From NCBI RefSeq assembly GCF_038002225.1, contig NZ_JBBOCA010000001.1, forward strand, positions 3,100,001-3,164,000: a stretch of DNA of 64,000 nucleotides, in the 5' to 3' direction. The translations under genes were made by a program, and so were the position numbers. Below are positions 4,597 through 24,430 of this stretch, one piece after another. The notes beneath the pieces are model-generated. The model did no database searches, was not told the DNA's origin, and worked only from the letters and a program-made list of their open reading frames with translations. The stretch's first letter is position 1. Every line of letters begins with the position of its first letter. This DNA comes from Paenibacillus sp. FSL R7-0204. GTDB taxonomy: Bacteria; Bacillota; Bacilli; Paenibacillales; Paenibacillaceae.

Positions 4597-5490
4597 TTAA
4601 GCAGCCTGAGTTCGGTATTCATGAGGACTCAGGTTGTTTAGCTTCGTTTGGAAACGTGCATGGTTGTAAAAATGGATGTATTGCTGCACAGCATGCTTCA
4701 CCTGCTTAGCAGAGTGGAAGGAGTGGAGGTAGAAACACTCGGCTTTAAAATGACCAAAGAAGTTCTCCATACAGGCATTGTCCCAGCAGTTTCCCTTTCG
4801 GGACATACTGGCCTTTATACCGTATCGCTTCAGTAGGCTGCTGTATTGGCGGCTAGTATACTGAAATCCTTGGTCGCTGTGCAAAAGAACCCCTTCAGTA
4901 TCACGCCGTTTTCTCGCCTTTTTGACCGTATCAAATACCAGTTTTAAATCATTCTTAGGGCTAATCTGGTACGCTACAATTTCATTGTTAAACAGATCTT
5001 TAATCGCAGACAAATACAGCCTTTGCCCGTTGAAGATTAGATAAGTGATATCCGTAACCCACTTTTGGTTCGGCTGGTCTGCTGTACACTCTCTATTCAG
5101 ATGGTTGTCAGAGATGACGTAAGCCTCTTTCTTGCCGTAATAAGGCCTTTTCCTCCGAATGACTGCTTGAAGTCCTAGTTCGCCCATGAGTCGCTGTACA
5201 CGCTTGTGATTCACGTGGATGGCGTAGGTACGCTTTAGCCAAACCTTCACCCTGCGGTATCCATAAATACCTTTTAGCTTCTCAAAGCATTCGACGATTT
5301 TAAGCTTCAAGGCTTCGTCTTCGCGTTGCTTCAGTGAAACGAACGTTTGTCGATTCAACCACTTGTAAAAGCCACTCCTAGATACCCCAGCCAGGTTGCA
5401 CAGCAGGGTAAGGTTGTATTTCTTATGAAGCATTTCCTTAATCACTGTAAACTTTTTGCTGCTTGGGACAGCGTCCATTCCTCCTTTCAC
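4597..5490 (-). CDS. IS3-family transposase OrfB (DDE integrase domain)
   Basis: 297 residues carrying an IS3-type N-terminal helical region, the HTH_21 segment, and the rve integrase core. Catalytic residues are D147 (WVTDITY), D206 (HSDQG) and E242, with the D-35-E spacing of the family. The frame starts at a GTG (5490) that overlaps the orfA stop by 4 bp, but OrfB is expected mainly as the C-terminal half of an OrfAB fusion made by -1 frameshifting upstream at 5502-5508. No truncation is visible. Confidence 0.92.
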   Translation of the reverse strand: MKGGMDAVPSSKKFTVIKEMLHKKYNLTLLCNLAGVSRSGFYKWLNRQTFVSLKQREDEALKLKIVECFEKLKGIYGYRRVKVWLKRTYAIHVNHKRVQRLMGELGLQAVIRRKRPYYGKKEAYVISDNHLNRECTADQPNQKWVTDITYLIFNGQRLYLSAIKDLFNNEIVAYQISPKNDLKLVFDTVKKARKRRDTEGVLLHSDQGFQYTSRQYSSLLKRYGIKASMSRKGNCWDNACMENFFGHFKAECFYLHSFHSAKQVKHAVQQYIHFYNHARFQTKLNNLSPHEYRTQAA

Positions 5491-5783
5491 ATCTGTAAGA
5501 GCTTTTTTAGCATTTCATTTTCCGCCTCAAGGCGCTTGATCTTGGTCTCTGGATCTTCGGGACGTGTTCGGGGTCTGCCCATTCCGGGTCCTTTCGCCTT
5601 CCCTCTTTTTTCTTCAAGACCCTTTAATCCCTCTACCTTAAAGTGCTTCACCCATCGGCGAACCAAGGAATCGTTAATCCCCATTTCAAGTGCTACACTT
5701 TTATATCCCAACCCCTTTTTGAGGTAGAGGTCTACTGTCTTTTTCTTAAACTTCTCATCGTACGTTTTCCTCATTTCACCCAT
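5487..5783 (-). CDS. IS3-family transposase OrfA (helix-turn-helix subunit)
   Basis: 98 residues of the HTH_Tnp_1 / helix-turn-helix type, with a C-terminal leucine-zipper-like helix (ETKIKRLEAENEMLKKLLQ). OrfA binds the element ends and regulates transposition. Near its 3' end the mRNA reads A_AAA_AAG in frame (5508-5502), the canonical -1 slippery heptamer; slipping there enters the orfB frame and gives the OrfAB transposase. A good ribosome site lies just upstream of the ATG. Confidence 0.9.
   Translation of the reverse strand: MGEMRKTYDEKFKKKTVDLYLKKGLGYKSVALEMGINDSLVRRWVKHFKVEGLKGLEEKRGKAKGPGMGRPRTRPEDPETKIKRLEAENEMLKKLLQM
5502..5508 (-). promoter_or_regulatory. -1 programmed frameshift site (A_AAA_AAG)
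   Basis: Codons CTA AAA AAG in the orfA frame present the heptamer A AAA AAG. The orfB frame is the -1 frame at this point and is open through it, so slippage yields a continuous OrfAB protein. A GGAGG-like sequence and the orfB GTG follow within 20 nt. Confidence 0.75.
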
Positions 5784-11830: not shown

Positions 11831-12139
11831 GTAAAGAAGGGGCAGTATTAGTTTGAACCGTTGCGGATAAGTACTGAATCGGATTGGGCGAGTATGCTTT
11901 AGGCCGGTATGTTGGGGCATAGCGATAAGCCCGTTGGCTGCAAAATACAGGAATGAAAAAATAGGTGGATTTTGTACACTTGCTGATGAACGGAAATGGC
12001 TTGCCACGACAATCATTGGAAAAACAGCACTTAATTAAACGCAAATTATATAAAATAGAAAAAACAATGAAATTAGATGCTGTTTTTCCACTTGTTTGCC
12101 TGCAAATGCTGAAAATCGCAAAACTAAGATACGTTTTTC
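11831..12139. repeat. Gene-free repeat-rich DNA with a 20-bp inverted repeat
   Basis: No convincing gene. Arms 12017-12036 and 12071-12090 are complementary at 18 of 20 positions (core TGGAAAAACAGCA / TGCTGTTTTTCCA) around a 34-nt A-rich loop. The sequence GTTTTTCCACTTGTTT (12082-12097) recurs as GTTTTTCTACTTGTTT just across the IS at 13372-13387, so before insertion this was a roughly 54-bp tandem. It resembles dispersed palindromic intergenic repeats rather than a gene. Copy 12131-12139 is the left target duplication of the IS4-family element. Confidence 0.55.
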
Positions 12140-13369
12140 TAGGCCTGTTGATTACCCAAAAAAAGGTAGCAAAAAGGCCGCCATTTCGATAAAGTGTTTG
12201 TACCCCTACAAACCTTCCGAAACGAGGCGGCCTCATGAAAAAGTCTACTTCAATTTCAAACATTCTGCAATTGGTGATTCCCGAGGAAAAACTACGTCCG
12301 ATTCTGGAAGAATTAAACTATATTGATGTTGCGCGTAAATTTACCGTGTATGATTTGTTTTTGTTTCTAGCTGAAGCAGCGTTTCAGCAGTGGGATGGAT
12401 ACCGAGACGGTGCCCAGCGAATGTCCCTTCAGGGACAACGTGCGGTGAATTATTCGACGCTTTCCAAAAAGGCTAAAGAGGTTCCTTTCTCCTTATTTAA
12501 GCGTCTATTGAAACTCATGATAGGGCTCTGTAATCGGAAGGCCAAGCGGTCACTCGGTATTCCGAAAGAACTGTTAATCGTGGATTCAACCACCATTTCG
12601 GTCGGTCAAGGCCGCTTGCCTTGGGCACAAATTAAAGGCAGAAAAGCAGGCGTTAAGCTGCATGTCGGATTACTTGGGGACTCGAATGAATTGCACAAAG
12701 TGACGGAGACCCCGGCTGTACAGCATGATTTAAACAGTTGCGCCTTCCTGCTCGACAGCCAATATATTTTGGTGGCAGACCGCGCTTACGGGAAGCACAA
12801 GCTGTTTGACAGCTATCAAGAGAAGAAAGAGCGGCAATATTTTGTCATTCGGCTTAAGGATAACACCACGCTCGTGAATCCGGTCCCGCGCCTGCGAAAT
12901 CGCCCATTTGAGGGAAGTATCGAGCAGGATTTGACGTGCCAATTAGGAAAGGTTAAGGCGCTCAGCAAGAATCAGTTTCGGGTGGTGATTCTTAAAGATC
13001 CTAAAGGGAATCCCGTCATTCTTGCGACAAATCTGCACTGGCACTCCCCCGAAGCCATAGCAGACATCTATAAGAAACGTTGGCAGATTGAAGTATTTTT
13101 TCGTTGGATTAAGCAGCATTTAAACATTCCCAAGTTATTTGGAACCACAGAAAATGCAGTATATGGGCAGCTATACGTGGCTTTATTGGTGTATGTGTTG
13201 CTAAAGTTTCTGTTTGAACAGGGAAATAGTACTGTGCATGTTAGCGCTAGATTAACGTTCGCCGAGTTTGATCGATTATTTACGCTGCAAAAGCTACCTG
13301 TGGAGTGGAAGATTTATTTAGCTCATGCCGTCGATTTTATTAACAGAAAATAGCTAATCAACAGGCTTA
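12140..13369 (+). mobile_element. IS4-family insertion sequence
   Basis: 1230 bp. Terminal repeats are TAGGCCTGTTGATTA (left) and TAATCAACAGGCTTA (right), complementary at 14 of 15 positions. The 9-bp ACGTTTTTC is duplicated on both sides (12131-12139 and 13370-13378; identity extends to 10-11 bp), as expected for this family. One intact transposase gene fills it, so it appears recently inserted and potentially mobile. Confidence 0.9.
12235..13353 (+). CDS. IS4-family transposase
   Basis: 372 residues with an RNase-H-like DDE core: D117 (IVDSTTISVG), D182 (VADRAYG) and E286. The IS4 signature Y-x2-R-x3-E-x6-K is complete (Y279, R282, E286, K293). A beta-strand insertion between the second D and the E is consistent with cut-and-paste IS4 enzymes. 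The start follows ACGAGGCGG. The stop codon lies 16 bp from the right end of the element. No frameshift or truncation is visible. Confidence 0.92.
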   Translation: MKKSTSISNILQLVIPEEKLRPILEELNYIDVARKFTVYDLFLFLAEAAFQQWDGYRDGAQRMSLQGQRAVNYSTLSKKAKEVPFSLFKRLLKLMIGLCNRKAKRSLGIPKELLIVDSTTISVGQGRLPWAQIKGRKAGVKLHVGLLGDSNELHKVTETPAVQHDLNSCAFLLDSQYILVADRAYGKHKLFDSYQEKKERQYFVIRLKDNTTLVNPVPRLRNRPFEGSIEQDLTCQLGKVKALSKNQFRVVILKDPKGNPVILATNLHWHSPEAIADIYKKRWQIEVFFRWIKQHLNIPKLFGTTENAVYGQLYVALLVYVLLKFLFEQGNSTVHVSARLTFAEFDRLFTLQKLPVEWKIYLAHAVDFINRK

Positions 13370-21164: not shown

Positions 21165-21923
21165 ATGAAAAACACTGCTGCACAAGGACGTCCTATCGTT
21201 TACTCGCTGGTATGGGGAGTGGTCCTGACCCTGGTTGTATCCGTTGCCTCCGCTGTAGCCGCGATTATGGAGTTCAGCGATATGGGGATTAGAAATGCCC
21301 AGGCCTGTGCCTACCTGGTTATGGGTATTATTGTAACTGTCTATATGAAAAGAAAGGATTCTTCGCTCGTGAGCTTCGGCTTCCGCAAGCTGGAGACTGA
21401 GCCTTCCAGAGCTGTTCTGTTCTACATCCCGCTAATCATTATTGCCTTAGCCCAGCCGCTGATGAATGGGGTTAACGTTGAACTGGGAGCGCCTGATGTG
21501 ATCAGCATTGTTATTATGACGCTGCTGGTGGGCTACGCTGAGGAAGCCATTTTTAGAGGAGTGATTTGGAATTATCTGAGATCTAAAGGCCCGCTCTACT
21601 ATATTGTGTTCTCATCCATCGTATTCGGGGTTCTACATATGGCCAACGCGTTTGGCGGAAATGATATCATACATACGCTTCTCCAGGTGATCAATGCGCT
21701 GCTGTTGGGTTGTCTTCTCGCTTTGCTGATAGAGACTGGCAGGAATATTATTCCGCTGATCGCGTTCCATTTTATTTATGATGCGCTGGCCATGGTCAGC
21801 AATGAGAATCTGGAGCATGAGGTGCTAATCGTCTCAATTCTTAATATTTTGTATCTCCTCTATGGAATTTATCTGCTCGTGATATTAATCCGCAAGCACA
21901 GAAAACATAGTCTCACTCTGTAG
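21165..21923 (+). CDS. CPBP-family intramembrane metalloprotease
   Basis: 252 residues, about seven or eight membrane segments. The CPBP (Abi) motifs are intact: EEAIFR (E126, E127, R131), FGVLH (H158) and a third HFIYDA motif near residue 202. Family members cleave prenylated or other substrates inside the membrane, and in Firmicutes are often linked to bacteriocin maturation or immunity; nothing here identifies the substrate. AAAGGAGA precedes the ATG and a perfect terminator follows 5 bp after the stop. Confidence 0.85.
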   Translation: MKNTAAQGRPIVYSLVWGVVLTLVVSVASAVAAIMEFSDMGIRNAQACAYLVMGIIVTVYMKRKDSSLVSFGFRKLETEPSRAVLFYIPLIIIALAQPLMNGVNVELGAPDVISIVIMTLLVGYAEEAIFRGVIWNYLRSKGPLYYIVFSSIVFGVLHMANAFGGNDIIHTLLQVINALLLGCLLALLIETGRNIIPLIAFHFIYDALAMVSNENLEHEVLIVSILNILYLLYGIYLLVILIRKHRKHSLTL

Positions 21924-21927
21924 ATAC

Positions 21928-21970
21928 ACCGGCCAGTCTGGAGATAATCATCAGTCTGGCCGGTATTTTT
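21928..21970 (+). terminator. Rho-independent terminator
   Basis: ACCGGCCAG and CTGGCCGGT form a 9-bp stem (extended by internal pairs) followed by ATTTTT, directly after the CPBP gene. Confidence 0.85.
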
Positions 21971-22116
21971 CTGACAAAATGATAGCGCATACATGAGAAG
22001 GAGCAGCTAACGGGAGCAAATAATCCGTAAACCAAGCAATGTTTAGAGATAGGCATTTTATTTACAATCCTCCTGAAATATCGCAGATTATGCGGGGATA
22101 TGCAGGTTTTTGAAAG

Positions 22117-22145
22117 TTTAAATTTGAGCATTTATCGGGTATAAT
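22117..22145 (+). promoter_or_regulatory. SigA-like promoter of the structured RNA
   Basis: TTTAAA (22117-22122), 17 bp, then a perfect TATAAT (22140-22145). The predicted start is about 22150-22153, exactly at the 5' arm of the first helix of the RNA below. Confidence 0.6.
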
Positions 22146-22149
22146 GTAG

Positions 22150-22787
22150 ACATCACCACAGGAACCACAGCAACAAGAGCACCAAGCCTTACAAGTGGTA
22201 CTGCAGGTGATGGTCTCATTCCTAAATTTAGCAATGAATGAAGGAAAGGAGAGAGCCCCGATGTACTAGCGTTAGCGAAGCATGCCGGAATCGGCTGCTG
22301 ATGAAGAAGGTGGATGATAACATCTTCTGGCAGATCGTGGGTATGCGGGAACCCAAAGAGCAAATCTTTTTTTGAAGAAGAACGAAGCTAATTATTCAAG
22401 CAAGAGAAGGTTCTTGCGGAAGAAAGAGCGTGATTCCAATGAAAAAGGTTAGCGAAGCGTACAACTGCGATTTATCACAGTAGGGAAAACGTCCGTGAAA
22501 ACGTTTTTCGTGAAATCGTGTACGCGGGAATCCACCCCATATGCATGACATGGAGCAATACTCCGAAAATGGAGCGAACGGGCAATACGGAAACATGAAT
22601 GAAACATGAAATTGAGAACAATCACCATGTCAGGGATATGGCTTTTGTTACTTGGAGGAAATGATTGAATTGAATAGCGTAATCAACACATGAATCCCCG
22701 GGCCTTAAGCAATCAGGCAGCGGGGATTTGTGCGTACGTACATAATAAGCTCTTTCTCTCCTGCGGAGGGAAGGGGCTCTTTTTTTG
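22150..22787 (+). ncRNA. Candidate large structured noncoding RNA (about 635 nt)
   Basis: A gene-free stretch bounded by a promoter and a terminator in which nearly every segment can pair. Helices seen: CATCACC/GGTGATG (22151-22157 with 22206-22212) enclosing CAG/CTG and CCAC/GTGG; GCATGCC/GGTATGC (22280-22286 with 22340-22346) enclosing CTGC/GCAG and GAAGA/TCTTC; GATTCC/GGAATC, GCGTAC/GTACGC, CGATTT/AAATCG and AAAACGT/ACGTTTT nested from 22432 to 22532; CCATAT and TGACATGG (22537-22553) with CCATGTCA and ATATGG (22625-22641), 14 bp around a 3x3 internal loop; AATCCCCG/CGGGGATT (22693-22700 with 22721-22728). Two of the arms repeat the same module (GTTAGCGAAGC at 22271 and 22448; GCGGGAAYCC at 22345 and 22524). 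I could not match it to tmRNA, RNase P, 6S, T-box or a riboswitch class known to me. A 10-codon frame at 22661-22693 is too poorly spaced from its GGAGG to be convincing. Confidence 0.65.
22748..22787 (+). terminator. Rho-independent terminator of the structured RNA
   Basis: AGCTCTTTCTCTCC and GGAGGGAAGGGGCT arms (several G-T wobbles) around TGC, followed by CTTTTTTTG. It separates the RNA from the germination operon, whose start is 143 bp further on; that gap holds no recognised promoter box. Confidence 0.7.
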
Positions 22788-22930
22788 ATATAAAAGATGC
22801 AATCAAAGCTTGGTCGTCACTGCGGTGAACATTTGGCCCTCCGGCCGCTGCTGCTTGGTTTAGAAATAAACCTTATTAGGCAAGACTGGATTACATAACT
22901 AACGCGGTATGCAGCAGGGAGAGACTACAC

Positions 22931-24430
22931 ATGAAATTTCACGAACAGTACCCCGGCCACTTGGATAATGAGCATCCTCAGCACCTGTGCCGGGAAGCCC
23001 ACCTCAATACGGAGCGGATCTGCCGCAGACTGGGCAACAGCTCGGATGTAAGCGTTAGGTCACTTCTTCTGGATTGGGCTTCTGTACAGCGGGAATGTGT
23101 CATTCAATTAATTTTTCTGGACGGGATGGTGAACAATCAGGTTCTGGAGGAGTCCTTTATTCCGGCGATTCAGTCTGCACCGCCTCCCCCGGAAGGGCAC
23201 AGTCTGCCGGACTATTTCAGCAACCAGATCCTGAGTGCGGGACAGGTCCGAACAGCCGGAGAGCTGAGCGGAGCGGTCAAGGATGTATTATCCGGCTGTG
23301 TACTGGTGTTAATTGACGGCTGTGAAGAGGCGCTTGCGCTTGCTATCCAGGGCTATGAGAAGAAGAGTATCGATGAGACCAAGACGGAAACGGTGATCCG
23401 GGGGCCGCAAGAAGGGTTCACCGATGATCTGCGCACTAATATTACGATGATCCGCAGGAAGATGAAGGATGAACGGCTGAGAATTGTAACCCGTTCGGTG
23501 GGGCAGGTCACGCAGACCGATATTTCAATCCTCTATGTCGAGGGGCTGGCAGATCAGCAGGTGCTGAACCGGATCTCGGAGATGTTCGATGAGATTGGAC
23601 TGAAGACCGTCCTGGAAGGCGAATTCATCGAGGAGTATCTGCAAAGCAACAAATACACCGTATTTCCGACAGTGCTTAATACGGAAAGGCCGGATAGCAT
23701 TACGGCAGGTCTGGCGGAAGGCAGGGTAGCCATTATAGTAGACGGGACCCCCTTTGTCATGATTGTTCCCTCCCTGTTTCTGGATTTCATCCAGTCGGCG
23801 GAGGATAGTTATCAGCCTTATCTGTTCTCCAGTCTGATTCGGATCTTGCGGCTTACCGCTGTAATCATCAGTATCTTTGCTCCCGGACTCTATATTGCCA
23901 TTACAACCTTCCATCAGGATTTGCTGCCCACACGGCTGTTGCTAAGTATTATGTTTCAGCGTGAGGGCGTACCATTTCCGGCATTTGTTGAAGCTACGCT
24001 CATGGAGATCACCTTCGAAATCATACGTGAAGCCGGAATCCGTATGCCCCGCAACATCGGCCAGGCGGTATCCATTGTGGGGACTCTGATTGTCGGGCAA
24101 GCCGCAGTAGATGCCGGAATTGTCTCGGCAGGGATGGTTATCGTGGTGGCGATTACCGGAATTTCAAGCTTCGTCATTCCTGCCTATAATATGTCGATCC
24201 CCATCCGGCTCATCCGGTTTCTGTTCATGGGGGCGGCAGCTTCCTTCGGAATCTACGGGATTACAGTAGGGTTCGTCATTCTGACTGTGCATATCTGCAG
24301 CCTGGAGTCTGCGGGAGTCCCTTATATGCGGCCTTACGCGCCTTATCTGAAGAGTGAACAGGCAGACGGCGTCTTCCGCAGTCCTTATTGGTCAAGCTCG
24401 CGGAATAAGCGCACCAGGAACGGGGCTTAG
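22931..24430 (+). CDS. GerA-family spore germinant receptor, A subunit
   Basis: 499 residues of the GerAA/GerBA/GerKA family: a soluble N-terminal half (about 1-285) and a C-terminal membrane half with about five segments, including the conserved PFxxFVE...EITFEIIREAGIRMPRNIGQAVSIVG region near residues 350-385. With the B and C subunits it forms the inner-membrane receptor that senses amino acids or sugars and triggers germination. Expression is expected in the forespore; I could not identify a SigG box. GGGAGAGA precedes the ATG. First gene of a four-gene operon. Confidence 0.93.
   Translation: MKFHEQYPGHLDNEHPQHLCREAHLNTERICRRLGNSSDVSVRSLLLDWASVQRECVIQLIFLDGMVNNQVLEESFIPAIQSAPPPPEGHSLPDYFSNQILSAGQVRTAGELSGAVKDVLSGCVLVLIDGCEEALALAIQGYEKKSIDETKTETVIRGPQEGFTDDLRTNITMIRRKMKDERLRIVTRSVGQVTQTDISILYVEGLADQQVLNRISEMFDEIGLKTVLEGEFIEEYLQSNKYTVFPTVLNTERPDSITAGLAEGRVAIIVDGTPFVMIVPSLFLDFIQSAEDSYQPYLFSSLIRILRLTAVIISIFAPGLYIAITTFHQDLLPTRLLLSIMFQREGVPFPAFVEATLMEITFEIIREAGIRMPRNIGQAVSIVGTLIVGQAAVDAGIVSAGMVIVVAITGISSFVIPAYNMSIPIRLIRFLFMGAAASFGIYGITVGFVILTVHICSLESAGVPYMRPYAPYLKSEQADGVFRSPYWSSSRNKRTRNGA

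Follow-up and report, generated by a model that had tools for sequence, protein, structure and literature searches.

Our analysis of a 64,000-nucleotide stretch of the genome of Paenibacillus sp. FSL R7-0204 (the window, to which all coordinates refer) showed that a structured RNA is encoded at positions 22150-22786 by a freestanding gene that has a promoter of its own. The existence of an RNA family is near certain, and the picture of that family as modular, with a defined fold and a micro-ORF of conserved length, is well supported. The RNA consists of one to four copies of a hairpin module of about 120 nt followed by a 3′ domain, and its size therefore varies; the window gene has two modules. 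A widespread RNA family is thereby added to the Bacilli, with matches in roughly half of the genomes sampled from one order.

The RNA gene and its boundaries

The gene lies in about 1 kb without a convincing gene between a gene for a CPBP/Rce1-like protein (21165-21923) and gerA (22931-24430; Pfam). A preliminary description of this interval had proposed an undescribed large structured RNA, and this is borne out by the lack of an Rfam match, many homologues and strong compensatory changes. The single large RNA that it described is real, but two related modules, a 3′ domain and a micro-ORF had been overlooked; because of this conserved frame of about seven codons, its statement that the interval lacks any convincing gene holds only for genes of normal size. 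The features are as follows.

22117-22122 and 22140-22145, + strand: promoter, with -35 TTTAAA, a 17-nt spacer and -10 TATAAT
22150-22237, + strand: 5′ region, starting with ACATCACC, with a local helix 22151-22157/22206-22212 in the minimum-free-energy fold
22238-22362, + strand: module 1 (covariance model R1, 81.8 bits, E 2.9e-19, whole genome)
22245-22251 and 22261-22269, + strand: module 1 Shine-Dalgarno (SD)-like AAAGGAG (predicted anti-SD pairing -13.4 kcal/mol) and two-codon ORF ATG TAC TAG
22416-22541, + strand: module 2 (model R1, 111.9 bits, E 9.3e-28)
22420-22428, + strand: module 2 SD-like AAGAAAGAG (predicted anti-SD pairing -12.9 kcal/mol)
22439-22483, + strand: module 2 14-codon ORF, MKKVSEAYNCDLSQ and stop
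22537-22553 with 22625-22641, + strand: 3′ domain helix, 14 bp with a 3x3 internal loop
22654-22658, + strand: conserved SD sequence GGAGG of the micro-ORF (predicted anti-SD pairing -10.9 kcal/mol)
22670-22693, + strand: micro-ORF TTG AAT AGC GTA ATC AAC ACA TGA, seven codons, MNSVINT
22689-22732, + strand: conserved terminal hairpin, overlapping the micro-ORF stop codon
22748-22786, + strand: second intrinsic terminator, with seven T at 22780-22786

The perfect TATAAT that had been noted at 22140 is present, and the TGAAAG upstream of the window promoter is part of a TGAA-n-TTTA motif common to the relatives. Of 119 entries (with L094 and L114 representing one locus), 57 have the pattern TGAAn1-3TTTA..TAnnnT in the 500 bases before their first module, compared with 0.8% of shuffled sequences; since only these 57 entries contain it, the promoter is conserved in kind and not in every letter. 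Aligned relatives show a single conserved gene comprising the promoter, a 5′ start near CATCACC, the 3′ domain and the terminal hairpin, and NCATCACC occurs in most, not all, of 28 representative loci aligned at the 5′ region. The + strand has a predicted folding energy of -210.3 kcal/mol (z = -6.9 relative to 20 shuffles), and folding of the - strand is also good (z = -4.1).

No Rfam 15 covariance model matched within the 64-kb window; for 21700-23000 the best hit had an E value of 7.1 and belonged to an unrelated microRNA model outside the RNA. At the gathering threshold, 19 homologous loci and one false-hit locus yielded only SAM, TPP and tRNA matches, all outside the RNA. Membership of a known Rfam family, including OLE, ROOL, GOLLD and raiA, was therefore rejected, and the likeness to OLE, ROOL and GOLLD that had been pointed out stands for size and not for membership. 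The family was not found in the literature searched. In a Paenibacillus riograndensis transcriptome, 27 intergenic small RNAs are reported, three of them annotated (PMC5670726).

Distribution of the family

Homologues were detected by blastn in 51 of 100 genomes of the genus and in 47 of 295 genomes of the family (4 of 19 genera), the source genome, which carries exactly one locus, being included in both counts. A pattern search for the module in genome contigs gave 26 stretches, 23 from Paenibacillus, one from Fontibacillus and two from metagenome-assembled genomes of Paenibacillaceae. Covariance model R1, built from 73 modules that include both window modules, matched 146 of 296 genomes of the order, again with the source genome; these matches span four families and 25 of 48 genera, and at least one marginal one is false. 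The match in G135 (genus g7, E about 8e-4) lies inside a protein-coding stretch, has no match to model R2 and was rejected; G155, of the same genus and with the same score, was set aside too, but both remain in the order and class tallies. A further marginal match of the order is G031 (E 9e-4). In a sample of the class, R1 matched 15 of 299 genomes, G135 and G155 among them and six outside the order, and in a sample of the phylum R2 matched 4 of 398, all within the class; stricter filters were used in the large covariance searches.

The distribution is patchy, 20 same-genus genomes being listed without a match to the model, which argues that the RNA is dispensable. Distant members have the module, the 3′ ORF and the terminal hairpin, and many have TGAATATTTACA-N-TATNAT promoter-like sequences.

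A repeated hairpin module

The two module regions of the window resemble each other, scoring 48 in a crude test in which none of 500 shuffles exceeded 41.5. Profile searches of 74 loci found one module in 30 loci, two in 29 and four in 14 (L094 and L114 being the same); the remaining locus, L038, has two RNA genes. A module starts with an SD-like tract, GAUUCC/GUCC, RWUG and GUUAGCGAAGC and ends with GCRUGYGGGAACUC.

Covariation strongly supports the module fold. Among 73 nonredundant modules, two-sided changes were present in 25 of 28 pairs, and 87% of the cells were paired. There were 217 two-sided cells, compared with 73.8 +/- 8.4 after shuffling that ignored the relatedness of the sequences, and at most 80 when the structure was slid along the alignment, a control that leans towards the structure since the latter was set partly by eye, by adding helices and pairs to an RNAalifold prediction on a plain MAFFT alignment. 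The compensatory changes in relatives by which the preliminary description proposed to judge the RNA are thus found, and are strong in the module. Helix 3 is the weakest (72% paired), and L160, L165, L180 and similar distant members retain only the two ends of the module, its central arm being almost absent.

A strong SD tract precedes an NTG at one alignment column in 113 of 115 modules (ATG in 84, TTG in 25, GTG in 4 and CTG in 0); the NTG is missing in the other 2. The ORF that it opens has 2 codons in 52 modules, 4 to 8 in 28, 9 to 19 in 32 and more in 1. A stop occurs within 19 codons in 72 of 73 modules in frame, compared with 59 in the +1 and 68 in the +2 control frame; by clusters, these control frames run beyond 19 codons in 11 and 8 of 41, compared with 1 in frame. 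Because the control frames often close early too, ORF length loses force as proof of translation, and translation of the modules is suggested, not proved. The sequences suggest that each module exposes its own SD tract and start codon ahead of an ORF of 2 to 19 codons. A conserved VSEAY peptide was considered and rejected, since a one-base insertion shifts the reading frame of GUUAGCGAAGC between modules.

The 3′ domain and the terminators

The preliminary description had located the 14-bp helix and its 3x3 internal loop precisely: it lies exactly as described, in blocks of 6 and 8 bp, and none of 30 single-base shuffles of the stretch gave an equally good one. All 13 pairs that were counted in it are intact in 23 of 23 sequences (100% paired), and none changes on both sides; the helix thus shows no covariation and, being near-invariant, was rejected as evidence of it. 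An equivalent two-block helix with a 3x3 loop is present in the distant loci L151, L155, L156, L157, L164 and L187; it was not found in some others, for example, L159, L162 and L163. A candidate pseudoknot, AACAA (22617-22621) with TTGTT (22645-22649), would cross the 14-bp helix and was 91% paired in the 23 sequences, without two-sided changes. In genus g8 (L097-L112), an extra insert of about 100 to 150 nt lies between the strands of the helix, with CTGTGAAGCATACGCCAATCGGCAAGAC, for example, in several loci.

The conserved terminal hairpin was 98.2% paired in the 23 sequences, with two-sided changes in 7 of its 12 pairs. The seven-T terminator at which the RNA had been said to end exists, although the T run begins one base later than claimed; the hairpin at 22689-22732 forms the 3′ end that is widely conserved. 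Only some members of the window's own clade were seen to have a terminator like that at 22748-22786, and it may be a lineage-specific backup. In the predicted fold, GAGAGCCCC of the 5′ half pairs with GGGGCTC of this last terminator; the sequence differs in relatives (GAGAATCCC), so the pairing is probably not conserved and was set aside.

A terminal micro-ORF of conserved length

The sequence downstream of the last module was taken as a segment in 119 distinct loci (120 segments), and an ORF of 6 to 10 codons at the terminal hairpin was present in 120 of 120: 6 codons in 6, 7 in 101, 8 in 9, and 9 and 10 in 2 each, the two with 9 being one locus represented twice. The ORF was called by a frame-free rule in 109, by re-choosing the start in 9 more (118 of 120) and by eye in the last 2, L043 and L044 (MRSQQET and MRSQEET). 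Among the 11 exceptions, five had an unrelated NTG, and the start was re-chosen by the same score near the hairpin; in the other six (L040-L044 and L046), the score preferred an ATG beside the SD sequence that opens a 2- or 5-codon ORF, and the start was moved to the column homologous to that in L045 and L070. Outside the 120 segments are L001 (the window itself), L050, in which a 7-codon frame was read by eye, L078 and L081/L118.

When the segments are clustered at 80% identity, the stop of frame 0 falls at codons 6 to 10 in 40 of 41 clusters, L043 being the exception. Frames +1 and +2 first close there in 0 and 3 of the 120 segments, and likewise of the 41 clusters, both frames being counted from the fourth codon because the motif TTGAATAG closes the two at once. 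In the 118 script-called ORFs, the start is TTG in 96, GTG in 14 and ATG in 8, and TAA, TAG and TGA are all seen as stops. The predicted peptides comprise 85 distinct sequences in 118, with Asn second in 99 and at the C terminus in 0 of 118. Read from the sequences, the micro-ORF thus keeps its length and frame while its peptide varies. Relatedness among most of the loci leaves the length changes as the independent events; we estimate, without a tree, about eight, all multiples of three.

The spacing from SD to start is long, at 9 to 16 nt in 36 of 41 clusters. With the first-choice start of the script, 99 of 118 segments have their stop codon between -9 and +1 nt from the terminal stem; the other 19 include loci with another hairpin or in which the script took another start. 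The position of the stop partly follows from the A-rich base of the stem, and the frame argument alone is independent. The micro-ORF was present in all 40 loci of the order that were read, and distant members have an SD tract and then NTG-AAT-A... with a short frame whose stop codon lies at the terminal hairpin.

Pairing to the anti-SD sequence, computed with an assumed 3′ end of 16S rRNA, was predicted at -13.2 kcal/mol for the modules (18 clusters) and -10.5 kcal/mol for the micro-ORFs (40 clusters), compared with -7.7 and -7.0 kcal/mol for shuffles of the same composition. Random 21-mers of the window gave -5.25 kcal/mol and five neighbouring genes -8.3 to -14.7 kcal/mol; the pairing of modules and micro-ORFs is thus better than that of shuffles and within the range of neighbouring genes.

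Genomic setting

The CPBP gene lies upstream in only part of the window's genus, in which a beta-lactamase-family gene is often convergent downstream; CheB- and GNAT-like genes lie near the RNA in genus g8 (the last three named from sequence alone). Clustering of neighbours across lineages found no neighbour gene that is kept. Clusters joining near and distant loci (c0 with 11 proteins, c1 with 10 and c5 with 5) are present in a minority of the loci, and their positions vary. Viral contigs gave no match in the pattern search, nor did phage and plasmid records by blastn at the DNA level. As the neighbours differ by lineage and no phage or plasmid match was seen, the gene is freestanding and likely acts in trans.

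Possible functions

We tentatively favor, while giving it somewhat less than even credence, the idea that this is a trans-acting structured RNA that docks ribosomes on minimal ORFs and resembles the mccA mRNA in mechanism. ORFs of 2 to 8 codons are reported to be translated repeatedly without release of the ribosome; the seven codons of mccA are recycled many times in vitro, and short mccA RNA accumulates when bound by ribosomes (PMC6495379). By analogy, 30S or 70S ribosomes would load on the minimal ORFs of the modules and the 3′ end, and, on frames too short to leave, would terminate and re-initiate in place, as on the seven-codon mccA in vitro. An RNA with n modules might thus hold n+1 ribosomes, or it might sense initiation; the module folds would gate ribosome access, and the peptides would be by-products. 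We infer that the same physics as in mccA would hold ribosomes here, each module copy adding a docking site. In 33 of 113 modules, the ORF exceeds 8 codons and is beyond the reported reiterative range. Such an RNA would likely serve in ribosome storage or titration or as a reporter of translation. That it specifically parks n+1 ribosomes, tethered by endless re-initiation, with the copy number of the module setting the capacity, we consider doubtful; if true, Bacilli would store or monitor their ribosomes on a new principle. The family makes testable both the roles of large orphan RNAs of Bacillota and whether cells hold ribosomes on minimal ORFs.

The mccA messenger shares with this RNA a seven-codon ORF, a strong SD sequence, conservation of length and not of sequence, and a terminator just downstream; the mccA-type combination of about seven codons and strong SD was found here in the 101 of 120 segments with 7 codons and in the mean anti-SD pairing given above. 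Unlike mccA, which heads an operon with mccB, the micro-ORF has no cross-lineage neighbour by clustering and is preceded by one to four conserved structured modules, and its peptides never end in Asn as the mccA peptide does.

Almost as plausible, and also short of even, is a trans-acting noncoding RNA, a ribonucleoprotein scaffold or regulator like OLE or raiA/ModT, in which the purine tracts, the NTG and TTGAATA would be untranslated motifs bound by protein or by the RNA itself. That GUUAGCGAAGC, GGGAACUC and AAUUGAAUA are conserved more strongly than codon logic would require, and that GUUAGCGAAGC is in different frames in different modules, would suit such an RNA, as would the variable copy number of one module, which fits multivalent protein binding. 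However, the terminal ORF retains its frame and length in every segment while its codons vary, and anti-SD pairing is as strong as at neighbouring genes, both of which speak for translation over untranslated motifs.

OLE RNA of H. halodurans and other Bacillota is likewise about 600 nt, highly structured and freestanding; unlike OLE, to which it has no Rfam match, the window RNA has a micro-ORF, and we know of no repeated modules in OLE. Ribosomal protein bS21 is reported in the OLE complex (PMC12054373). ROOL and GOLLD are similar in size and structural richness, whereas here there is no Rfam, phage or viral match and there are a modular copy number and a micro-ORF. The size and layout of the raiA motif/ModT RNA differ from those of the window RNA, which has no Rfam match to it. 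Like the window RNA, the raiA motif/ModT RNA is a conserved structured RNA of Bacillota (PMC11706538). The two-codon ORFs after SD tracts in many modules recall minigenes but, unlike these, lie inside a conserved, covarying RNA hairpin that is tandemly repeated. A minigene is a start codon, one sense codon and a stop, as in the lambda bar type. To our knowledge, a variable-copy module with a ribosome-binding-like site and a heptacodon ORF of conserved length matches no known kind of RNA. A minigene is also reported at axe-txe (PMC8708949).

It is improbable that the RNA is a messenger for a bioactive heptapeptide, such as a pheromone or an mccA-type antibiotic precursor, with the modules as a regulatory 5′ leader. 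The seven-codon length is that of mccA, and the peptide is species-variable, as would be expected; yet the neighbour clustering shows no cross-lineage gene to modify, export or sense it, none of the 118 peptides obeys the MccA precursor rule of a terminal Asn (PMC6495379), the Asn at codon 2 belongs to the RNA motif, and the modules would be left without a role.

Somewhat less probable still is a cis-acting leader or attenuator, in which ribosomes on the micro-ORF would decide whether the abutting terminator forms and so control the next gene. The closeness of the stop codon to the terminal stem is what an attenuator would have, but no conserved downstream gene such as a riboswitch or leader would control was found among the neighbours: the downstream gene varies by lineage and is often convergent, so readthrough would have no consistent target.

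A mobile or phage-derived element, which the differing chromosomal settings between lineages and the two copies in L038 might evoke, is very improbable given the single locus in the window's genome and the DNA-level searches without viral, phage or plasmid matches.

Variant loci

The two RNA genes of L038 (Paenibacillus G002), at 5109-5682 (two modules) and 11900-12338 (one module), lie about 6.5 kb apart. In L042 and L045, of the window's genus, the 5′ region differs in sequence and length, with repeats of the GAGCCGTTTAAGC type, and may hold a diverged extra module. L176-L178, from outside the order, have two modules 0 to 2 bases apart, with the same neighbours in all three genomes. L165 (5054-5548) has a tandem array of three near-identical short modules spanning no more than 500 bases, suggestive of recent duplication.
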